Assembly: GCA_001787585.1 (NCBI GenBank)
Contig: MFXW01000029.1
Coordinates: 9,327-41,677, forward strand
Length of the DNA stretch: 32,351 nucleotides
Origin: Candidatus Peribacteria bacterium RIFCSPHIGHO2_02_FULL_53_20
GTDB taxonomy: Bacteria > Patescibacteriota > Gracilibacteria > Peribacterales > Peribacteraceae
Direction: 5' to 3'
Numbering within the stretch: position 1 is the stretch's first letter; every line of letters starts with the position of its first letter. Below are positions 13,892 to 32,156 of this stretch, one piece after another. The notes under the pieces were generated by a model, which saw only the letters and a program-made list of their open reading frames with translations, did not search any database and was not told where the DNA came from. The position numbers and the translations under genes are program-made.

Positions 13892-14137
13892 ATGCGTTCC
13901 GTTCTCAGTATCTCCATTCCGCCAAAGAAGCTTGCTGCTCTGAAGAAAAGAGCAAAGTGCGAGGGCATGACCATCAGTGCCTACGTTTTGAGTTTTGTTG
14001 ATCAAGAGGAAAATCTTATCACCGAAGCGGAACTTCTGGAAGATCTCCAGCAAGGAGAACGAGATCTCGCTCAAGGAAAACAGAGGACTCTCGGTCCCAG
14101 TGATTCACTGGAAGAATTCTTTCCGATAAAGAAATGA
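13892..14137 (+). CDS. RHH/CopG-like antitoxin
   Basis: MRSVLSISIPPKKLAALKKRAKCEGMTISAYVLSFV is RHH-like; stop overlaps the next ATG (ATGA). Confidence 0.75.
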   Translation: MRSVLSISIPPKKLAALKKRAKCEGMTISAYVLSFVDQEENLITEAELLEDLQQGERDLAQGKQRTLGPSDSLEEFFPIKK

Positions 14138-14403
14138 GGATCCGGATTATCAACACTCTCCCAAAGTTTGACAAGAATTGGGACTCTCTTTCGAAGGAAA
14201 GTCAGACAAGAGCTTTCAAAACCATTGAACTTTTCCGAGTGAACCCCCTGCATCCCTCTCTTCGTTTGCACCGGCTGCACGGTCATCTCAAAAAATATTG
14301 GAGTATCTCTGTTGATTTACACATTCGTATTATTTTGAGATTTGAAGGTGATACAGCACATTTTTTTTCCATTGGCACTCACGCTCTGTACAAGAAGAAG
14401 TAG
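14134..14403 (+). CDS. RelE/ParE-superfamily toxin
   Basis: FDKNWDSLSKESQTRAFKTIELFRVNPLHPSLRLHRLHGHLKKYWSISVDLHIRIILRFEGDTAHFFSIGTHALY has the RelE/ParE layout; directly downstream of the antitoxin. Confidence 0.85.
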   Translation: MRIRIINTLPKFDKNWDSLSKESQTRAFKTIELFRVNPLHPSLRLHRLHGHLKKYWSISVDLHIRIILRFEGDTAHFFSIGTHALYKKK

Positions 14404-15069: not shown

Positions 15070-15252
15070 CTACTTCTTCTTCGCCGAGCTCACGAACTGA
15101 TCTTCAGTCATCGCGGGAGAAACGCGGCGAACTTTTGCAAGGATCTGTTCTTTGGCGACACCGGTCGCGGAAGCGTACTGCTTGCGGAGACGCGCGAGCT
15201 TGGTCTTGCGTTTGCGGCGTGCGTGGATTTCACGTTGACGGATGCGGGACAT
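15070..15252 (-). CDS. Small highly basic conserved-type protein (60 aa)
   Basis: MSRIRQREIHARRKRKTKLARLRKQYASATGVAKEQILAKVRRVSPAMTEDQFVSSAKKK; resembles MGRIRQRE-type small basic proteins seen in several phyla (recalled, not searched). Confidence 0.7.
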   Translation of the reverse strand: MSRIRQREIHARRKRKTKLARLRKQYASATGVAKEQILAKVRRVSPAMTEDQFVSSAKKK

Positions 15253-15339
15253 GAGAAAAAGGGAAGAAGACCGGGGAACAGTATTGCAGATGCAGAGAGA
15301 AAGGGAAGGGTGATGAGCAGATAAATTCTCATGTGTTCA

Positions 15340-15368
15340 TTGCGCTTTCCTGACAGCTCTTTTACGAT
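15340..15368 (+). promoter_or_regulatory. Predicted promoter of the helicase-like gene
   Basis: TTGCGC (15340-15345), 17-nt spacer, TACGAT (15363-15368), ATG at 15381. Confidence 0.5.
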
Positions 15369-15380
15369 TAAGCACTTTCT

Positions 15381-18041
15381 ATGGCATTAGAAGCATTCGT
15401 GCCGCCGGCGAAGTCACTTCCCATGAAAAAGGGATCCAGAAAAACAGATGCCCACAGGATATTCGATGCCATGCACGGGCAGATGGATGCGGTGTACCCT
15501 GCGGATGATGCCGAGGCATGGAGCTGGACTGGAGAAGGCTTTTCCGAACACATCATTACGCCTCCCGTTGACGATTTCAGCTACTGGTTTTCCCATACAT
15601 TTGAAACATCTGATGAGTTTTCCCAAGCGTTCGTCCAGCGGATGTTTACGGTCTGGCACTCACTTGAGGAAGAAGGATTCCGGGCCAACGATCACGAGTT
15701 GTATGAACATCAGAAGGCACTCTTTGCATGGATCGCGCTGAGCGGTGTCACCGGTGTGCGCTTCAAGATGGCCAATCTCCTGATCCGTTCTCCATACGGA
15801 AGTGGCAAAAGTCTTGTCGCGGGACTCACAAGCCGTGCCATGTATGAATTGCAGGCGGAAATGATCGCACGCGGAGTGGATATCGCCTCTATTCCTACAG
15901 GCGCACTTCTTGGTCTTCGGAGGGAACACATGCAACAAAACGCTTTGGGGCAACAGTATGCGGTGCTCCAGCCGCCGTATACAGTGGAGCGCAGAGACGT
16001 GAATTCGTTTTGGCAAAGTCTCGGCAAAATGTATGGCGATGATTTTGCAGGGAGCTTCGCTCGTCCGGCAGGAAAGCAGCATCCGTTCTACAATCTCTTC
16101 CCCATTGCTGACGAAGCAGAGCATGCTCCTCCGGTTGCCACACGGCTGCAGAATTACTTTGAGCAAATGGACAGTAAGCGTGCGGCATCATGGAAAGGCG
16201 TGGCTCCAAAAAGTCAGAGGCACATTGTCGACACTTTGGAGGCATTAATGGAAGGACGCATTGTTCTCGTGCCTGATGCCTACAATGTTCCTCAGCCCGA
16301 GAAGCCGATTCCCTTGGCGGATGATCAGAAAGAACACGGGAATCGCTACCTCGGGGATTCGGCTCACGCACTTTTCGAGAGTGAACTGTACCACGTGAAG
16401 ACAACGCATCCGCACCTTGCACTGGATCGCAATGCGTATACCACACAACCAAATATGGAACATCCAGCGCACTTCTGTATCGCGTATGGCACGATGCTCA
16501 CGCGTGATCCAGAGCTCATCCGCGCGGATGTCCGAGAAGAAATTATGCGACGTCTCCGGTTCATGGCTCTGGATGAAGCGGGAAAATACAATCCTTTGTC
16601 CGTGACCGACTCGGCGGCGCAGGCCTCTGGGCAGCCGACTCTGCTATTGGGATTTACCGGCCAGGATCGTGGTATCGACGGGTGGACGGCTCGGTCACCG
16701 GTCCTCTCCATCCGGCAGATGATCCGTTTGGGTCTCATGAAGCCTATTGCCTTCTCCGGCATCGGCGATGCGCGCCATCCCGTGAAGCAGGGGACGGAAG
16801 AGGCGTGGGATGTGTATCGCGATGCGATGTTCCGGGACGAAAAAACCGCAAGCACACTCCATCTTCCACAGGCACACGAGCTCGATACCGTTGTCGTTCC
16901 GCCTGCTGGGCACGTCCGTGAATATGCGCATCGCATCATCGAAGCGCATAAGGAAGAAGGGAAGCCGGTCAAAGTATGGGCATTTGATCCCGAAGCCGGA
17001 GACAACCGCTGGGGGATCATCGCCAACGGCTTCAATGCGCCGAAGAAGGAAGGAGATTCGCGGCGCGTTCTTGTTGCTCCTCCTTCGCAAATTTCCGAAG
17101 CGCTTCATCTCGGCGCAGAATGTTATGACGTTCTCACGAATGTGCAGCGCCATGCACTTGATCAAATGCGCGGGAGACTGGGGCACATTCGCAATACCGG
17201 AGCATCGGAGCGAGAGCGGAAGAATGCCCGAACGCATTTTCGCATGCAGTGGCTGCGCGATGCCCCCGGGGAGGCCTATGTCCGTGATATGGCCCAAAAA
17301 ATGGGATACAAGCTCGATGATGAAGGAGCCACATGGAAGCAGCAGCAATGCATGATAGATGCCGAAGCTCATGATCGCGATCAGAAACGAAAAGGGATGA
17401 GCGCTCCGGAGTCGATTCCCGACATCAAAGCCATTCAGATGCGCAAAACCCGCAAACAATCGAAAGCAGAAGGAACTCCCTTAAAGCCCACGAGCTCATA
17501 CGTGATCGCGCGTGAAGCAAAGAAGTCTGAACGCGAAGTCAAACGCAGCTTGAAGCGAGCGCTGGAATTGCCTTCTGTCATGGCATCGCTTCCGCCCGCT
17601 TCGGTTGCGACTTCAGAGACGACGACACGTCTTCCCACAGAGTCGATCCCGTTACATCTAGCTACGAATCCACATCTTCGCATCGACACTACACCTTCGG
17701 TAAAACTTCTGGAATATTCCGCGACGGTCCGGAAGAAAGGTAAAGGGAAAAGTGCGAAACAGAGAGAAATTTCCGTAACGATCATCGTCGGGCCGGATGG
17801 TATGCCGACGAATCTTGGAACGCTTGCAAACATTCACGGAATCGGTGCCTATGCCAACAATTTGATGCGTAAGTCACGAGAAGAGCTCGCAAATGACGTT
17901 CAAAAAGCAGCCTTGGCCAAAGTGGTCGCACAGGAAATCCTGCGTTTACAGCAAGTAGTCGAAGATCGGAAGAATGGCGGAACGAAAAAACCAGATGCCG
18001 ACTCCAGTGGCCACTACATTGGTGTGAAACTGGTGAGATAA
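15381..18041 (+). CDS. Divergent SF2 (DEAD/DEAH-like) helicase-like protein, 886 aa
   Basis: Walker A-like RSPYGSGKS, Walker B-like FMALDEAGK, motif III-like LLLGFTGQD, motif VI-like QMRGRLGH in the correct order. Confidence 0.65.
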   Translation: MALEAFVPPAKSLPMKKGSRKTDAHRIFDAMHGQMDAVYPADDAEAWSWTGEGFSEHIITPPVDDFSYWFSHTFETSDEFSQAFVQRMFTVWHSLEEEGFRANDHELYEHQKALFAWIALSGVTGVRFKMANLLIRSPYGSGKSLVAGLTSRAMYELQAEMIARGVDIASIPTGALLGLRREHMQQNALGQQYAVLQPPYTVERRDVNSFWQSLGKMYGDDFAGSFARPAGKQHPFYNLFPIADEAEHAPPVATRLQNYFEQMDSKRAASWKGVAPKSQRHIVDTLEALMEGRIVLVPDAYNVPQPEKPIPLADDQKEHGNRYLGDSAHALFESELYHVKTTHPHLALDRNAYTTQPNMEHPAHFCIAYGTMLTRDPELIRADVREEIMRRLRFMALDEAGKYNPLSVTDSAAQASGQPTLLLGFTGQDRGIDGWTARSPVLSIRQMIRLGLMKPIAFSGIGDARHPVKQGTEEAWDVYRDAMFRDEKTASTLHLPQAHELDTVVVPPAGHVREYAHRIIEAHKEEGKPVKVWAFDPEAGDNRWGIIANGFNAPKKEGDSRRVLVAPPSQISEALHLGAECYDVLTNVQRHALDQMRGRLGHIRNTGASERERKNARTHFRMQWLRDAPGEAYVRDMAQKMGYKLDDEGATWKQQQCMIDAEAHDRDQKRKGMSAPESIPDIKAIQMRKTRKQSKAEGTPLKPTSSYVIAREAKKSEREVKRSLKRALELPSVMASLPPASVATSETTTRLPTESIPLHLATNPHLRIDTTPSVKLLEYSATVRKKGKGKSAKQREISVTIIVGPDGMPTNLGTLANIHGIGAYANNLMRKSREELANDVQKAALAKVVAQEILRLQQVVEDRKNGGTKKPDADSSGHYIGVKLVR

Positions 18042-18060
18042 TTTTTTTTACATTCTCTCT

Positions 18061-20289
18061 GTGCTTCGCAGCGAATTTCCAGCAGATTACGGCGAAAAGC
18101 TTTCTCTCGAAGAACCTGATTTGTGGGACATTAACGATTTTAAAGGTCATAAGCGAATGGCGGTTGCACGTGGCAATGCGATGCTGAGTGATATCTTCGA
18201 GACGCGGAAGACGGATCTCCCAAAACTCATTGCCGCAGTGCGGTGGTCTCTCTGCCAGATGCCATTTCGGGACTATGCGCATGGAGTTGGCTTAAGTCCG
18301 AATGGATACAGCCCCATGGAGAAGGATATGAAGAAGGAGGGACTGCTCAGCCGCTACAAGTACACCCTACTTCTTCGTGACTGGGAGCAGCGAGGAATTT
18401 CTCTGGGTATCCGCGAACAGATGATCGATGTACTCACAGCTCCGCATCTTCTTCAGATGGATGAAACATGCACGGATCTCCTGAGCAGTATCGAGTACAT
18501 CCGGAACCAATCGAAACATCTTCTTGGAGTCTTTGATATGAATGCATTTTACCATCGCATAGGTGTGGATCGTGGTCATGAAGAGGTAGAAAAGAGCTTC
18601 CCCCACCTCTTCAATACGATCTGGCAGCGGGAGCAAACAGATACAGTCCCGGACTGCCTTGAGGTCATCAGCATCGTGGATGCCATGTACGGTGGAAAAT
18701 CCAAATGTACGAAACAAATGCACGCGTTGCGGAAAGCCCAAGGGCTCGGTGTCTGGAGCGAAGTGCAAAAATGGAAGTATCGGGAATCCACAGTCGAGAG
18801 AACACTCGCAGATTTTCTCGTGGGAGTGGAACGTGATCTGGCATTGCGTTTTCATGTGCCGCTCACCGCAAAGGCGCTCCAAGATCATTACGGATTCGGT
18901 CCCCACGATGCGCAATTTCTCATTCAGTGCGAATGGATCGATCCGGCGAGTGCTGAGAAGGCAGTACGGCAGATACTGCCGCCCCGCGATGCCAAGAAAT
19001 TATTGCAAGGGTGGTCGGAGGAATATGCAGAGGAGAGCAAACGGGAAACATTCGGCAAGCTTGCCAGTGCTGCGATGGAGGATCGCGGTTACACGGCTGC
19101 CGATGTTGCAGAACTTCTCGGACTTAAGGCTCCCGAGGAGCGTGGCAAAGATACCGTTGAAAGAAAACAGCGTTATCGACCGGATGCGGAGGTGCGAGGA
19201 GTGCTGTTTGAAAATCATGTGAGCAAGCAAATTTCCGTGGAGGCATTGATTCAGGTCATTGCTCGTGATGAGGATCATCTTCAGCGACTGCGAAAAATGT
19301 ATGCCGATTACCGGACTCGTTTTTTCAGGCGCAACGGAGCAACACTGGAAGGAAAAGGGTTGCAGATGCGCACCGCACGCGAGCTTGCCAATGTCACCAT
19401 GCATGATCTCGCATTACATTTTCTTCCGAAGAAGTTGCATGACGATCGTACAGCCGTACGCAAAAAAGATCTCGAACTCCAGAAACTGGAACGCGACGAA
19501 GGGAGCATACATCCTATTCGATTTTCAAGTGTCTTCCGCATTCTCGAGCAGATCAGTGCGCAGCGCGTTGAAGAAGCAATGGCTCGTGTAAGCGCTCTGG
19601 ACATCATGGATGAGTCACTCAAACAATTCTCGACCGTGCGGGAGATGGCTTCCAATCTTGTCGTGGGGCTGAAGGGAGCCAATAAAATTTCCGATGCCAT
19701 GCGCGACATTGCGCGCAATGATTCCGAATGGCTGCGATCCGATCTCATCACCAAAATGGCAGAGGGCGCATTTGTGAGCGCCCTTCCTCCACTAAGGGTG
19801 ATGACCAAGTCGACGATTGACAAAGAACTTCCTGCAGAAGTCGTGCGGGATTGGCATGAGCGGTTCCCGGAACAATTGCAAAAAGGATTGATGGGTTTCG
19901 GGAAAGTCACAAGACCAATCGCACGCGTTCTTTGTACGCTGATTGCCCGGATCGAAGCCGAGCCCATGCAGTTCTACCAAGATCGTGTGCCGGGCATTGT
20001 GCCTACGCACGGAACAAAACACCTGCGGGACTTGGATGCGGGCTATCCAGTCGATTGGCGATACATTCACAAGGCTCTGTTGGGTGCGGGGATCCCAGCT
20101 GGGCACCCTTCGTATGTTCTCGTGAAAGAACTATATGACAACGGGGGAAATCTCGCAGCGGCACTGCTCAAAGTCATTCCTATACTTCAAGATGCGGGCG
20201 AAGAAATCCATCCGTTGAACTTGCAGGGATTAACATTCAATGAACTGAAGCCTTTTCAAAAAACCAATAAGAAATCTCCCAAAAAATAA
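18061..20289 (+). CDS. Large uncharacterised protein (742 aa) with putative HTH segments
   Basis: GTG start; HTH-like segments YAHGVGLSPNGYSPMEKDM, GYTAADVAELLGL and XRE-like MRTARELANVTMHDLALHF...LELQKLERDEGSIHPIRFSSVFRILEQ; co-directional 19 nt after the helicase gene. Confidence 0.65.
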   Translation: MLRSEFPADYGEKLSLEEPDLWDINDFKGHKRMAVARGNAMLSDIFETRKTDLPKLIAAVRWSLCQMPFRDYAHGVGLSPNGYSPMEKDMKKEGLLSRYKYTLLLRDWEQRGISLGIREQMIDVLTAPHLLQMDETCTDLLSSIEYIRNQSKHLLGVFDMNAFYHRIGVDRGHEEVEKSFPHLFNTIWQREQTDTVPDCLEVISIVDAMYGGKSKCTKQMHALRKAQGLGVWSEVQKWKYRESTVERTLADFLVGVERDLALRFHVPLTAKALQDHYGFGPHDAQFLIQCEWIDPASAEKAVRQILPPRDAKKLLQGWSEEYAEESKRETFGKLASAAMEDRGYTAADVAELLGLKAPEERGKDTVERKQRYRPDAEVRGVLFENHVSKQISVEALIQVIARDEDHLQRLRKMYADYRTRFFRRNGATLEGKGLQMRTARELANVTMHDLALHFLPKKLHDDRTAVRKKDLELQKLERDEGSIHPIRFSSVFRILEQISAQRVEEAMARVSALDIMDESLKQFSTVREMASNLVVGLKGANKISDAMRDIARNDSEWLRSDLITKMAEGAFVSALPPLRVMTKSTIDKELPAEVVRDWHERFPEQLQKGLMGFGKVTRPIARVLCTLIARIEAEPMQFYQDRVPGIVPTHGTKHLRDLDAGYPVDWRYIHKALLGAGIPAGHPSYVLVKELYDNGGNLAAALLKVIPILQDAGEEIHPLNLQGLTFNELKPFQKTNKKSPKK

Positions 20290-21618
20290 TCACACCCCTT
20301 CCACACAATCCCCATCTTTCAGCTCCGTCTCCACCGGTTTTTTCCTGCCGTTGATCCGCACAACGCGGATTGTTTTTGGGGTATGCGGACAGGCGATCTT
20401 CAGAAAATCCCGCGCAGTCGCCGGGCGGGGAATGTGATAGAGATTGTCCTGGGCGTCGAAGATGGCGATATGCGATTCGTCGAAATACGAACGCAGCGCT
20501 TTCTCAAACTGCGTCGGCGACCGTGCTTCCGCCCGCAACGTCTGCAGGTTGCGCCAGAGATCCACTGCTGTCCCGACACTATTCAAGGCATAGGTCATAC
20601 GTTTGTATTCCGCGTGCGACATCACGCCGAGCTCGCATTCGCGGTCCATTTCCTCCGTTCGGATCTGGATCTCCATTGGCTGTTCCGTGACCCCGGGCAG
20701 CGGCCAGATCACGGTGTGGATGGAGCGGTACCCGTTCTCCTTCGGCGCGCCGATGTAGTCCTTGAGTTTTCCCGGCACAGGATGCATGCAACGGTGGACG
20801 ACACCGAGTGTGCGGTAGCAGTCATCAAGCGATGGAACGATGATGCGCAGCGCGAGCCGGTCCGTGAGCTCACGGAATGGACGTCCTTTCACCACGATTT
20901 TGCGGTACGTGGAGTAGAGCCCCTTGATGCGGTGACTGAGGTCCGCGGAGATGCCGACACTCGCCAATTGTTTCCGGAGAAACGCCGTCGTTCGATCGAT
21001 GCAGATCATATCCACCGCGCTCATGCGCGCGAATTCCTCCTCCAGTGCTGCGGCATTTTTCGGCTGCAGTATCTGGAAACAGATGTCTTCCATTTCGTGG
21101 CGCCACCGGTGGAACCCGAGTCTTCCGGCGATCGCCGTGTACATGTGGAGCGTCTCCCGGGCGATCTCACGCTGGCGCTTCGGGGAGAGTGTCCGGATGT
21201 GGCGGATGTCGATGAGACGGTGTGCCATGCGGAGCAGAAGCAATCGGCTGTCATTCGCGAAGGAGCGGATGACGCGATCGAGATCTTTTGTATTTTCATC
21301 AATGTGCAATTTGCGCAGCTTGTGCATGCCGTGCGCGAGTGACCGTTCCTCCGATGTGAGCGGAGAAGCTTCCATGATCGCTTTTCCGTCGGGAAGAACG
21401 AGAAGGTCGTGTGCCATGGCCGCCGCAAGCAGCGTGGTATCCGCAGTGATCTCACGGAGTGCCTTCACTATCTGCTGCCCGTGCTCGAAGTAACTTTCTC
21501 CGGTATGTCTGCGGAGACCAGCAAGGTGCGTACGCGCAAAATCCAACACCATTCTCAGATGCGTGGCAGACGCAGGAGAGAGGCATTCGACGACGAGAGT
21601 ACTGGCGGATGTGTTCAT
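20290..21618 (-). CDS. RelA/SpoT-family (p)ppGpp synthetase with degenerate HD domain and TGS domain
   Basis: RIKGLYSTYRKI, DRLALRIIVPSLDDCYRTLGVVH, PKENGYRSIHTVI, MEIQIRT; C-terminal TGS-like IAIFDAQDNLYHIPRPATARDFL. Confidence 0.92.
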   Translation of the reverse strand: MNTSASTLVVECLSPASATHLRMVLDFARTHLAGLRRHTGESYFEHGQQIVKALREITADTTLLAAAMAHDLLVLPDGKAIMEASPLTSEERSLAHGMHKLRKLHIDENTKDLDRVIRSFANDSRLLLLRMAHRLIDIRHIRTLSPKRQREIARETLHMYTAIAGRLGFHRWRHEMEDICFQILQPKNAAALEEEFARMSAVDMICIDRTTAFLRKQLASVGISADLSHRIKGLYSTYRKIVVKGRPFRELTDRLALRIIVPSLDDCYRTLGVVHRCMHPVPGKLKDYIGAPKENGYRSIHTVIWPLPGVTEQPMEIQIRTEEMDRECELGVMSHAEYKRMTYALNSVGTAVDLWRNLQTLRAEARSPTQFEKALRSYFDESHIAIFDAQDNLYHIPRPATARDFLKIACPHTPKTIRVVRINGRKKPVETELKDGDCVEGV

Positions 21619-27522: not shown

Positions 27523-29775
27523 TTGCCGATGACCCAGTTGCCCGCTTCTATCGAGCAATACCTTCTCGAGTCCGGATTCTCCGGAACGGAGATCTTCATT
27601 CTCAAGCATTTGCTTGCGGGAGGTTCCATGACATTACGCGAGCTTGCCGCGAAGACCGGGAAAAGCACGGGGGTGCTGGATTCTGCGAGTAAAAAGCTTC
27701 TGAAGAAGGGGATTTTAGGTCGCGAAGTGATCAATGAGACGCCAAAGCTCACACTCTCTTCTTTAGGCGCTGTTGTCGCATGGGTCCATGAAGACAGCGA
27801 ACACAAGCACAGAGCCATGGAGCGCCGCGAAAAGGATCTGCAATCCTTCGTGGATTCACTTTCCGTCGAAGTCAGCCGCGCCGATATCCAGCATTACGAA
27901 GGATTAGCAGGATTGGAGCAGACCTACACGAAACTCCTCGAAGAGTGCGGCGGACACATGCTCCACTTCCTCCCCGTCCGTCATACGGAGGTCGAAGATC
28001 CACTCCGCGACTTCCTCGTTTCCTACTTCCGCCTCCGCCGCCGTAATGGTGTCATCACGCGCGTCATCGCTCAAGACACCCCCCTCGGTCGCCGCTATCA
28101 ATCTCGTGATGTCTTCGAGTATCGCCAGACGCTCCTCGTCCCAGAGTCCGTTTACGCCTTCAATACCGAAAAGGTCGTCGCCGGCGACTGGGTCGCAACG
28201 ATCAATCACGAAGAAAACAAAGCGTTCCTCATCCGCAGCAAAGAAATGGCGCATACCGAGAAAGCGATGTTTGAGGCGATTTGGAAGCAGGAGATGGTGA
28301 AGCAGAAGGAGAAAGTGGGGGCAGCGGCTCCTACCACAGTGAAGGAATTGGATGTGGGAACGAGGGTAGCGTCGACCGTAAGAGATTTTCTTCTTAGCAA
28401 GCGCAGCATTGCTGCCTTTGCTTTCTGTGGCGTTCTGGCAGGTGTTCTTACCTTTGCTCTCTACAAGAATAACGAGAAACTTATCCTAAAGCGAGTAGAG
28501 GAAAAAATTCTTTCGGTTGCTGCTACAGGTGCTTTGCAATTCGATGCGAATGATCTCAATCAATTACGTACATCGGCAGACATCACTAAGCCGCAATATG
28601 CTAAAGTTATCCGCCAGCTCAATGCGATCCGGCAGCAGAACGAAGGTATCCAATACATTTATATCTTGCGTCCAACGGAGGAATTTGGCATTTGGGAATT
28701 TGTCGCAGATGCCGATTCATTGGATCTCTCTGCGCAAAAAGATTTGAATAAAGACGGAAAAATTGATGAGGCAGATCATCTCTCGCCGCCCGGAGAAAAA
28801 TACGACCCCATGAACTCAATGAATGAAAATAGTCTCGCATTAATTAAGCCCACCATCATCAGTGCATTGGCAGACCAGTGGGGCAATCTTATTGCCGGGT
28901 GGGCTCCCATTAAAGACAGCATGGGGAAAACAGTAGCTGTTCTCGGAGTGGATAAGTTTGCCAGCGATGTAGGGAGTCTTACGAATGCGACGTTTAAGCC
29001 TGTTCTATATTTCCTGAGCCTATTTTTCCTTTTTGCCTTCATTCGTCTGGCTGCGCTTAATCGTTCTTTGCTTAAAGAAATACTTTCCTTGAGTAAAACA
29101 AAAGCTTTTTTAACAGCAGCAGGTGTGTTGGTTATTTTGTTTATAGGGGTTTCCTATGCGATGTATCTGCAGACCTTGAATTTAATTAAAGAACAGACCG
29201 CAGAGCGTTTAAGAGCAATCGCAGCCACAACTGCTTTGCAAATTGATTACAAAGATCTTGAACCACTGCAGTTTGCGGCTGATATGAAGAGATCTGAGTA
29301 CCAAAGAGTTTTTGAAATTTTAAATAATGTGAGAAAAGAGAATCCAGATGTGAAATGGGCTTTTATTCTTCGACCAACCGGGAACGAGGGGATTTGGGAA
29401 TTTGTTGTAGATGCAGATGCAAATTATTTCTTGCCATCAGGAATCGATGAAAATCAGGATGGCGTTATATCGGAATCAGAAGAGAACGTTTTTCCGGGGT
29501 TTCAGTATGATGTGTCTGAGGATCCTATTATGAGAAGTGCGTTGGAAGGTCCAGTAGCAGCGAAAGAATTTCATTCGGATCAATGGGGTACATATGTTTC
29601 AGGATTTGCGCCTCTTTTTGATACTAACGAGACTGCGGTAGCAATCATCGGATTTGACATTACTGTGTCAGATGTTTTAATAAAAGCCAGAAATAAATTC
29701 CTTAGCAATCTACTATTCATAGTTATTTTGTTCATAGGGTTCATTATTTCCAAAAATATGACTATATTCAAATAG
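27523..29775 (+). CDS. TrmB-like HTH regulator fused to two tandem membrane-bound extracytoplasmic sensor domains
   Basis: N-terminal HTH (ILKHLLAGGSMTLRELAAKTGKSTGVLDSASKKLLKKG) and TrmB-like effector region; TM; two homologous sensor units each ending DQWG...AVxGxD. Confidence 0.8.
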   Translation: MPMTQLPASIEQYLLESGFSGTEIFILKHLLAGGSMTLRELAAKTGKSTGVLDSASKKLLKKGILGREVINETPKLTLSSLGAVVAWVHEDSEHKHRAMERREKDLQSFVDSLSVEVSRADIQHYEGLAGLEQTYTKLLEECGGHMLHFLPVRHTEVEDPLRDFLVSYFRLRRRNGVITRVIAQDTPLGRRYQSRDVFEYRQTLLVPESVYAFNTEKVVAGDWVATINHEENKAFLIRSKEMAHTEKAMFEAIWKQEMVKQKEKVGAAAPTTVKELDVGTRVASTVRDFLLSKRSIAAFAFCGVLAGVLTFALYKNNEKLILKRVEEKILSVAATGALQFDANDLNQLRTSADITKPQYAKVIRQLNAIRQQNEGIQYIYILRPTEEFGIWEFVADADSLDLSAQKDLNKDGKIDEADHLSPPGEKYDPMNSMNENSLALIKPTIISALADQWGNLIAGWAPIKDSMGKTVAVLGVDKFASDVGSLTNATFKPVLYFLSLFFLFAFIRLAALNRSLLKEILSLSKTKAFLTAAGVLVILFIGVSYAMYLQTLNLIKEQTAERLRAIAATTALQIDYKDLEPLQFAADMKRSEYQRVFEILNNVRKENPDVKWAFILRPTGNEGIWEFVVDADANYFLPSGIDENQDGVISESEENVFPGFQYDVSEDPIMRSALEGPVAAKEFHSDQWGTYVSGFAPLFDTNETAVAIIGFDITVSDVLIKARNKFLSNLLFIVILFIGFIISKNMTIFK

Positions 29776-29825
29776 AACTATCAAAATGACATTGTGCATC
29801 GGTAGCAAAAATCAAGATAAAGGGT

Positions 29826-29831
29826 TATAAT
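29826..29831 (+). promoter_or_regulatory. -10 box TATAAT of the histidine kinase gene
   Basis: TATAAT 7 nt upstream of ATG 29839. Confidence 0.45.
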
Positions 29832-29838
29832 GCTTTGA

Positions 29839-31281
29839 ATGAAAATAAAAAAAATAATTGAAAGCTATTGGGCCCACGGAAGAGTTCTTATGGCACTTAG
29901 TACATGTGCCCTTTTGGCAGCAACAATTACATATGTATTATTCATACAAACACAGCAAATTTTGAAACAAAGACTTCAAGAACGAATTACGGCAATAGTT
30001 TCTACCATTGCCAATGAAATTAGTGCAGTAGATGTAGAGAGCGTTAAAGATGTAACTGATCTAAACACACCTCAATTGGAAAAATTGGTTAAACAATTAG
30101 AAAGATTAAGATTGGCAAATGCTAACATTCAATATGCATATATCATGAGGCGGACTAAGGAGTCTAATATTTTGGAATTTGTAGCTGATGCAGACTCTTT
30201 GGATTCAATAGCAGAGCTAGATTTAAACGAAGATGGAGAAGTGTCAGAAGATGAAGTAGCACCTTTGCCCGGAGATCCCTTTGATATATCTGCATATCCT
30301 ACCCTAAGAGATGAGGCTTTTTATCATCCGGTAGCAGCGAATGAATTAGAGCAGGACCAGTGGTCAGTACAGCTTTCTGCATATGCTCCGATTTTGGATG
30401 AAAGTGGCAATGCAGTTGCAATCGTTGGTATCGATGTGATCATGGATGATTTCAACGAGAGAACGCAAGCAATGCTTCGTCCTTTTCTATTGTTCATTCT
30501 TTTTCTAATTCTTTTGCTTTCCCTTTTAACTGTAACACTTGTGCGTGTTTATAATGAACGAGTTGAGGCAGTAAAAGAACTTGATCGTCAAAAAGATGAA
30601 TTACTTGGCATCGTTAGTCATCAATTAGCCACTCCTATTTCTGCGTTGAAATGGGATTTTGAGATGTTGCTGGATGGAGATATCGGAACATTTACGGGAG
30701 AACAAAAAGATTTCTTCCAAAAACTACAAGGAGTGGCCGCACACCTTTCTGATCTCGTTTCGATGATTCTCGATGTGTCACGTATTCAATTAGGACGTAT
30801 GAAGGTAGATCGAACAGATCTTGAGCTCAATACATTCTTTGATGAGCTTTTGAATATCATGTCCGCTAAAGCAAAAGAGAGGAATGTGAATCTTACATCA
30901 TCTATACCAAAAGGCCTTCGTACTGCTCAGTTAGATAAACGTCTTATGTTGATGATAACAGAAAATCTTATGAGTAATGCAATCAAGTACACCCCCGAAA
31001 AAGGAAATGTAAAATTAGATGTGAAAGTGGAGAATAAAGTTCTAAAAATAGTAGTTAGCGACACAGGTTGCGGAATTCCAAAACAGGATCAAGACAAAAT
31101 TTTTGGGAAATTATATCGTGCTAGTAATGTCCGGAGTGTTGATGGAAATGGATTTGGTTTGTATGTAGTTAAAGGTGCAACAGAGGCTCAAGGGGGAAAA
31201 ATTACTTTTAAAAGCCAGGAAAACCAAGGAACATCTTTCTATGTAGAATTGCCCCTAAAGGAAAATCAAGAAACCAAATAA
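29839..31281 (+). CDS. Membrane sensor histidine kinase
   Basis: TM-flanked sensor domain; HisKA ELLGIVSHQLATPISALKW; HATPase ITENLMSNAIKYTPEKG, VSDTGCGIPKQDQDKIFGKLYRA, GNGFGLYVVK. Confidence 0.95.
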   Translation: MKIKKIIESYWAHGRVLMALSTCALLAATITYVLFIQTQQILKQRLQERITAIVSTIANEISAVDVESVKDVTDLNTPQLEKLVKQLERLRLANANIQYAYIMRRTKESNILEFVADADSLDSIAELDLNEDGEVSEDEVAPLPGDPFDISAYPTLRDEAFYHPVAANELEQDQWSVQLSAYAPILDESGNAVAIVGIDVIMDDFNERTQAMLRPFLLFILFLILLLSLLTVTLVRVYNERVEAVKELDRQKDELLGIVSHQLATPISALKWDFEMLLDGDIGTFTGEQKDFFQKLQGVAAHLSDLVSMILDVSRIQLGRMKVDRTDLELNTFFDELLNIMSAKAKERNVNLTSSIPKGLRTAQLDKRLMLMITENLMSNAIKYTPEKGNVKLDVKVENKVLKIVVSDTGCGIPKQDQDKIFGKLYRASNVRSVDGNGFGLYVVKGATEAQGGKITFKSQENQGTSFYVELPLKENQETK

Positions 31282-32156
31282 ACACCCAATATCATCATTG
31301 AAAGTGCCAGATATTTTTTCCAAAGATTCAAAAAGACTTGGGTGTCATACTTAACTTTAAAAAATGAAACAATCAGTAAGCCAATAATAAATGTAAAACC
31401 CGGCATTGTTGTTTCTACTGCTGCAACGAGTGAAGGAATGCCTTCTTGAATAGATTTTTGCGCAAATGCCAAAGCTGCAAGGTTTATAATTTCTATACAA
31501 ATAAATAATTTAAATGAAGAATTTAACAAACCACTTCTGATAGCTAAGACAGATCTTACTTTTGTAAAAATAAGAGGGATCACACCGACTAAAATAATAC
31601 CACAAGTTAGTAGAGTGAATCCGGTAACGTATTGAGTATTTTCATATACAAAATCTTGAATAAGATAGGAAATAGCTTGAAGCAATGAAGCTCCAACCAT
31701 AAAAATGAAGGCAGATGTTCGTGTCTCTAAATTATGATCAGAAAGCAGCATCATATTAGATGCAAAAATTAAAATAACGATTCCAATATATTGGTAAGGT
31801 GTAAGTATATTTCCAAATATTGAAAAACTAAGAATTGGTAAAATTGCTGGAATAATATTCCAGTAGGCAGCAACAATTCCTGCGTTGGTGTTCGCAAGCG
31901 CATTAAAATAAAGTAGCTGGCTGATTTGTATAAGGATTCCAGCACCGATGGCCAATAACATTATTGAGTTACTCGGCCATTCCCATCCTATTATTGGCAA
32001 AACAAAAGGTAACGGTGCAATGACTACAAGCGACGCAACAGCACTTGTAATAACACCTATCCAAGGTCTTTCAAAAATCTCGTCAATGCAATATTCATCG
32101 AGCAAATGTACAACCGCAAAACAGACAGCAGCAGCCAGCGCTAGGAATACCCACAT
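31266..32156 (-). CDS. EamA/DMT-family membrane transporter
   Basis: About 10 TM helices; NALANTNAGIVAAYWNIIPAILPILSFSIFGNILTPYQYIGIVILIFAS; TGtTATATT box 6 nt upstream of ATG. Confidence 0.85.
   Translation of the reverse strand: MWVFLALAAAVCFAVVHLLDEYCIDEIFERPWIGVITSAVASLVVIAPLPFVLPIIGWEWPSNSIMLLAIGAGILIQISQLLYFNALANTNAGIVAAYWNIIPAILPILSFSIFGNILTPYQYIGIVILIFASNMMLLSDHNLETRTSAFIFMVGASLLQAISYLIQDFVYENTQYVTGFTLLTCGIILVGVIPLIFTKVRSVLAIRSGLLNSSFKLFICIEIINLAALAFAQKSIQEGIPSLVAAVETTMPGFTFIIGLLIVSFFKVKYDTQVFLNLWKKYLALSMMILGVYLVS

Follow-up and report, generated by a model that had tools for sequence, protein, structure and literature searches.

An undescribed, exchanged two-gene module of a predicted SF2-type ATPase and a putative multi-HTH protein in Candidatus Peribacteria

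The gene pair

The stretch of DNA that was analysed (the window, 32,351 nucleotides) comes from a Candidatus Peribacteria (CPR) bacterium with a genome of 1.13 Mb. Two long, adjacent and co-directional ORFs separated by a spacer of 19 nucleotides were reported there by the initial annotation, and their coordinates were confirmed. The genes and flanks of the locus are:

15070..15252, - strand: left flank, DUF6800 protein of 60 aa; in G002 and G003 it is conserved next to the cassette, in G004 about 1.5 kb away
15291..20296, no strand: exchanged cassette; DNA similarity to the same-genus genome G003 ends at 15290 and resumes at 20297
15381..18041, + strand: gene A, 886 aa, ATG start; SF2-type ATPase
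18061..20289, + strand: gene B, 742 aa, GTG start; all-alpha protein predicted to have several HTH domains of XRE type
20290..21618, - strand: right flank, RelA/SpoT-family gene, its stop directly adjoining that of B; in G003 and G027 it likewise neighbours the cassette

Both A and B are regarded as real genes because their codon composition is like that of other genes of the same genome and because dN/dS in homologous pairs (0.13 for B of G004 and G001, 0.12 for A of G220 and G221) indicates purifying selection. A of the window has no match in Pfam, NCBIfam or PADLOC, and neither A nor B has a significant match among the defence HMMs of PADLOC-DB 2.0. The initial annotation had put the block forward as a candidate for an undescribed system; no strong match to a known family was found for either protein, and the genes co-occur and co-evolve in relatives, their adjacency being conserved. 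The pair is an undescribed, exchanged two-gene module that fits no described system, possibly but not provably one of defence against foreign DNA.

Gene A: a predicted ATPase with an altered motif VI

The motifs of A, all on the + strand, are:

GSGKS, residues 140-144: Walker A, plus Q111
DEAG, residues 398-401: Walker B
GFTGQ, residues 424-428: motif III-like
RRVLVAPPSQISEAL: motif V-like
QMRGRLGH (R599, H602): motif VI

The helicase-like motifs initially read from the 886-aa protein are kept in its homologues. In an alignment of 17 sequences, G140, G142 and K143 of the Walker A GxGK are present in 16 of 16 relatives, as is D398 of the Walker B DExx, and E399 is present in 15 of 16. The histidine of the Leu-Gly-His variant of motif VI is likewise conserved: R599 and H602 are each found in 13 of 13 relatives, which are all those that cover the motif. 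Motif VI of A is GRxxH and departs from the consensus QxxGRxxR with its arginine finger by a histidine that replaces the second arginine. Active SF2 helicases have an arginine at this position.

An SF2-like nature of A, also proposed at the outset, is borne out by profile comparison. Against a profile of Peribacteria proteins from the same bacterial family, which we take to be RecG from our reading of their sequences, A gave a hhalign match of 73% over motifs II to VI and another, likewise collinear, over Walker A, so that motifs I, II, III, V and VI of A are collinear with those of RecG; GFTGQ pairs with AMTAT, and RVLVAPPSQISEAL pairs with DILVSTSVIEVGI, so that the order of motifs III and V is that of SF2 proteins. 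Unrelated profiles (B, ligA, the TPR protein and XRE) gave at most 0.2%, and UvrB-like and other SF2 sets, several of them incomplete because certain loci had been taken on the wrong strand, at most 5%. Pfam ResIII was found in four of the 17 A sequences (best E 1.2e-6). A shares with the SF2 RecG/ResIII (PF04851) group the Walker A motif, the DExx Walker B motif and the order of the III-, V- and VI-like motifs, but differs in the invariant histidine, and A of the window is too divergent for a Pfam or NCBIfam match. The AlphaFold2 model of A, made with seven sequences and examined for the two RecA-like domains of an SF2 fold, has a pLDDT of 53.8, and a Foldseek search with this model returned no meaningful match; because structure prediction failed, the SF2 assignment rests on sequence profiles. 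By these profiles, A is classified as an SF2-type ATPase with intact Walker A and B motifs and an altered motif VI (GRxxH).

Gene B: a large protein with several probable XRE-type domains

The HTH domains of B, all on the + strand, are listed below; hhalign values refer to a compiled XRE profile, some sequences of which are generic and resemble a consensus:

18202..18438, residues 48-126: N-terminal XRE-type HTH, hhalign 93%
19033..19323, residues 325-421: probable XRE-type HTH, hhalign 45%
19363..19536, residues 435-492: XRE HTH; Pfam HTH_31/HTH_3/HTH_19 at this position in relatives L022 and L069
19732..19836, residues 558-592: XRE HTH; Pfam HTH_31/HTH_3 at this position in relatives L065 and L069

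At residues 48-126, unrelated profiles gave 0.2-0.6%. Curated HMMs found no XRE HTH in B of the window itself, but they matched three relatives at homologous positions. The HTH-like stretches initially noted in the 742-aa protein are supported as XRE-type by profile and by Pfam in relatives; the one stretch quoted as close to XRE corresponds to residues 435-492, where two relatives carry a Pfam XRE HTH. Three further HTH units are weak and in-register, with profile values of 2-12%, and comparison of internal repeats within B gave at most 23%. The model of B is all-helical at moderate confidence (pLDDT 61), best at about residues 160-515; a Foldseek search with it gave no usable match, and the B profile matched nothing among PDB sequences. 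By model and profile, B appears to be all-helical and to carry three or more HTH domains of XRE type, probably more than three, and it may comprise about seven XRE units. It shares such domains with XRE regulators (Pfam HTH_3/HTH_19/HTH_31) at two or more positions by Pfam in relatives and at a third by profile, but whereas classical XRE proteins usually have one, B is a chain of some 740 aa in which one helical unit follows another, several of these units being degenerate.

Sigma regions 2 and 4 were not found in B of the window, and in the B family they occur only in a relative from genome G202. There, a 1214-aa ORF (G202:C27, L069:8133-11777) consists of a full-length B-like region, in which Pfam finds two XRE HTHs, fused to an entire sigma-70 with regions 1.2, 2, 3 and 4; the same genome has a separate, normal rpoD. 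No B-type N-terminus was found on other long sigma ORFs (G027, G215). The fusion protein matches PADLOC MzaA (PDLC02203) over 261 C-terminal residues, a match due to the sigma part alone: MzaA, which is defence-associated, has a C-terminal sigma-like part in common with the fusion, but the match leaves out the B part, and A and B of the window have no sigma-like part.

Distribution and joint divergence

The relatives found by the alignment search come from metagenome-assembled genomes. Of the 74 genomes of the family, 16 have A, 14 have B and 12 have both (hypergeometric p 7e-9, uncorrected for kinship); A is absent from 58. The two genes are neighbours in 11 of these 12 genomes and lie on separate short contigs in G231. 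The order is mostly A then B on the same strand, with divergent orientation in G027 and G002, and B is present in two copies in G004, G002 and G209. A occurs without B in G003, G021 and the pair G220/G221, and B without A in G202, G215 and at a second locus of G027. In G001, G002 and G231 the A gene runs off a contig end, and masked bases are present in B of G210. In G215 (L068:6839-11347), two divergently oriented B-family genes are found with no A nearby. In G221 (L071:10658-11897) and G220 (L072:2182-3427), the place of B after A is taken by two other proteins, one of ArsR type that has two HTH stretches and an unknown one of 153 aa; these two genomes share 80% identity in A and 98% in the adjoining RNR gene.

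No A or B was found outside the family in a class sample of 358 genomes, nor any A in a phylum sample of 382 genomes searched for A alone. A single-sequence search of genome contigs gave no match, and an alignment-based search of them gave six Peribacteria/Peregrinibacteria loci.

The pairwise identities of A and of B are correlated with r = 0.91 (Mantel p 2e-4). The question raised initially, whether the two genes go together across related genomes, is answered in the affirmative. Their correlation with ligA identity is r = 0.00 for A and r = 0.04 for B. AU tests rejected a single A clade in each of the genera g1, g5 and g18 (p at most 5e-4); the A tree has long branches, which make exact placements uncertain. 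Composition gives no evidence of transfer, because A and B share the GC content of their surroundings. By these comparisons of sequences, the pair diverges jointly and is exchanged as one cassette at a favoured site in the chromosome.

The exchange site

Within g1, the genus of the window, the cassette sits between the DUF6800 gene and relA/TPR/ligA. Between the window and G003, which lacks B, LigA is 84% and A is 17% identical; across five g1 genomes, A at the same site is 17-49% identical and ligA 76-85%, the closest A pair being that of G001 and G004 (their B proteins are 74% identical). Of the 16 genomes with A, 11 have the cassette at this region or close to it: near TPR or ligA in G000, G001, G003, G004, G014, G021, G229, G231 and G210, beside relA in G027, and with the same upstream flank in G002. 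Genomes free of the cassette have other variable genes in the same region, among them, as named by sequence, a putative toxin-antitoxin pair together with a pair of HTH and metalloprotease-like genes; repetitive ORFs of very large size occur there too. Three loci (L111, L116 and L117, from G200, G202 and G034) have repetitive ORFs of 2700-4500 aa near TPR, ligA or relA, which are possibly surface proteins. Upstream of the cassette in the window, a putative toxin-antitoxin pair at 13892-14403 looks RelE-like by eye and has no match among PDB sequences. No convincing shared operator-like repeats were found upstream of A; TTGTCA-like promoter elements were seen there by eye at several loci.

Two assemblies contain two copies of ligA each, G002 (C47, C8) and G199 (C82, C16), those of G002 being 83% and 63% identical to ligA of the window; either duplication or contamination may account for them. 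Within the window, G+C drops from about 53% to 34-39% in 29001-32000, which spans an ORF at 29839-31281 and a - strand ORF at 31266-32156. At the end of a Peribacteria contig (G027:C14, L022:17315-18496) lies what we take to be a DUF1559-like protein of planctomycete type, a product of contamination, chimera formation or transfer.

Possible function

The hints to function conflict, cassette behaviour pointing to defence and the sigma fusion to promoter recognition; the common denominator is a motor accompanied by HTH domains that read DNA. Defence genes are usually patchy, fast-diverging and exchanged as cassettes, and in this analysis the patchy spread, co-divergence and cassette exchange of A and B resemble those of defence or conflict modules. 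A role against mobile DNA, or in conflict more generally, is tentatively preferred as quite possible. B would read a long or composite DNA sequence and place A upon it, and A would use ATP to translocate on, or remodel, a DNA-protein complex rather than act as a processive helicase, so that replication or transcription of foreign DNA (a phage, a plasmid or a competing element) would be blocked or cleared. Ca. P. riflensis has no CRISPR-Cas (PMC4736985). Counting against a conflict role, neither a nuclease nor any other effector domain was recognised, PADLOC has no match to A or B of the window, the cassette lies among housekeeping genes, without an integrase and outside any clear defence island, A without B and B without A exist in some genomes, and the fusion in G202 points to transcription. 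Hachiman HamAB and Druantia III DruHE likewise combine an SF2 ATPase with a dedicated partner, but no nuclease or partner of those families was recognised, nor any significant PADLOC match.

Transcription, a role that the initial annotation had not considered, is the main rival because a full-length B relative and a complete sigma-70 share one 1214-aa frame. B, large and with multiple HTHs, would then read promoters, and A would be an SF2 ATPase that remodels either RNA polymerase or complexes on promoters, for which RapA and the poxvirus VETF heterodimer are models, and the pair would control host genes and be exchanged like other regulators. This is somewhat unlikely. It accords with the occurrence of B alone, but the sigma fusion was found once only, other long sigma ORFs (G027, G215) have no B-like N-terminal part, and extreme divergence with cassette exchange at one site is unusual for a host regulator. 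VETF follows the same logic of an SF2 ATPase with a large DNA-binding partner, and its subunit VETFS was the sole helicase that the A profile matched among PDB sequences; the match is collinear but very weak and not significant (E 0.4), and B has no shown homology to VETF. A leftover of a mobile element, in which a replication, partition or maintenance module would consist of B as origin binder and A as helicase or loader, is distinctly unlikely. A helicase-like motor, a multi-HTH DNA binder and horizontal movement would fit a replicon module, and five A relatives weakly match the phage DNA-helicase family PHROG 16 (best E 2.4e-5), but 50,697 phage and 72,556 plasmid records contain no relatives of A or B of the window, both genes are under purifying selection, and among the genes next to the inspected cassettes (a minority of these genes being searched in family libraries) none was recognised as an integrase, relaxase, phage structural or partition gene. 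The RecG-like profile of A and the position near ligA in many genomes might suggest a fast-evolving host pair for DNA repair or recombination, a very doubtful reading that is already disfavoured, as the AU tests and the zero correlation with ligA reject fast vertical evolution and most of the family has no A.

Returning to conflict with foreign DNA, a more specific and unlikely version may be considered, in which B is a modular reader of long DNA sequences, made of about seven degenerate XRE units, that would guide an SF2 motor of non-canonical type to specific DNA. The two would form an exclusion system that works without a nuclease, and on one occasion a sigma factor would have taken over this reader, giving rise to a giant transcription initiator. 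To our knowledge, a read-out architecture of about seven degenerate XRE units has no precedent.

With an invariant GRxxH in motif VI and a multi-XRE partner, the pair has a mechanism that can be tested directly. Few defence genes are recognised in CPR bacteria, and a pair that is absent from all family libraries tried, co-evolves and is exchanged at a preferred site is a candidate for a system invisible to current catalogues.
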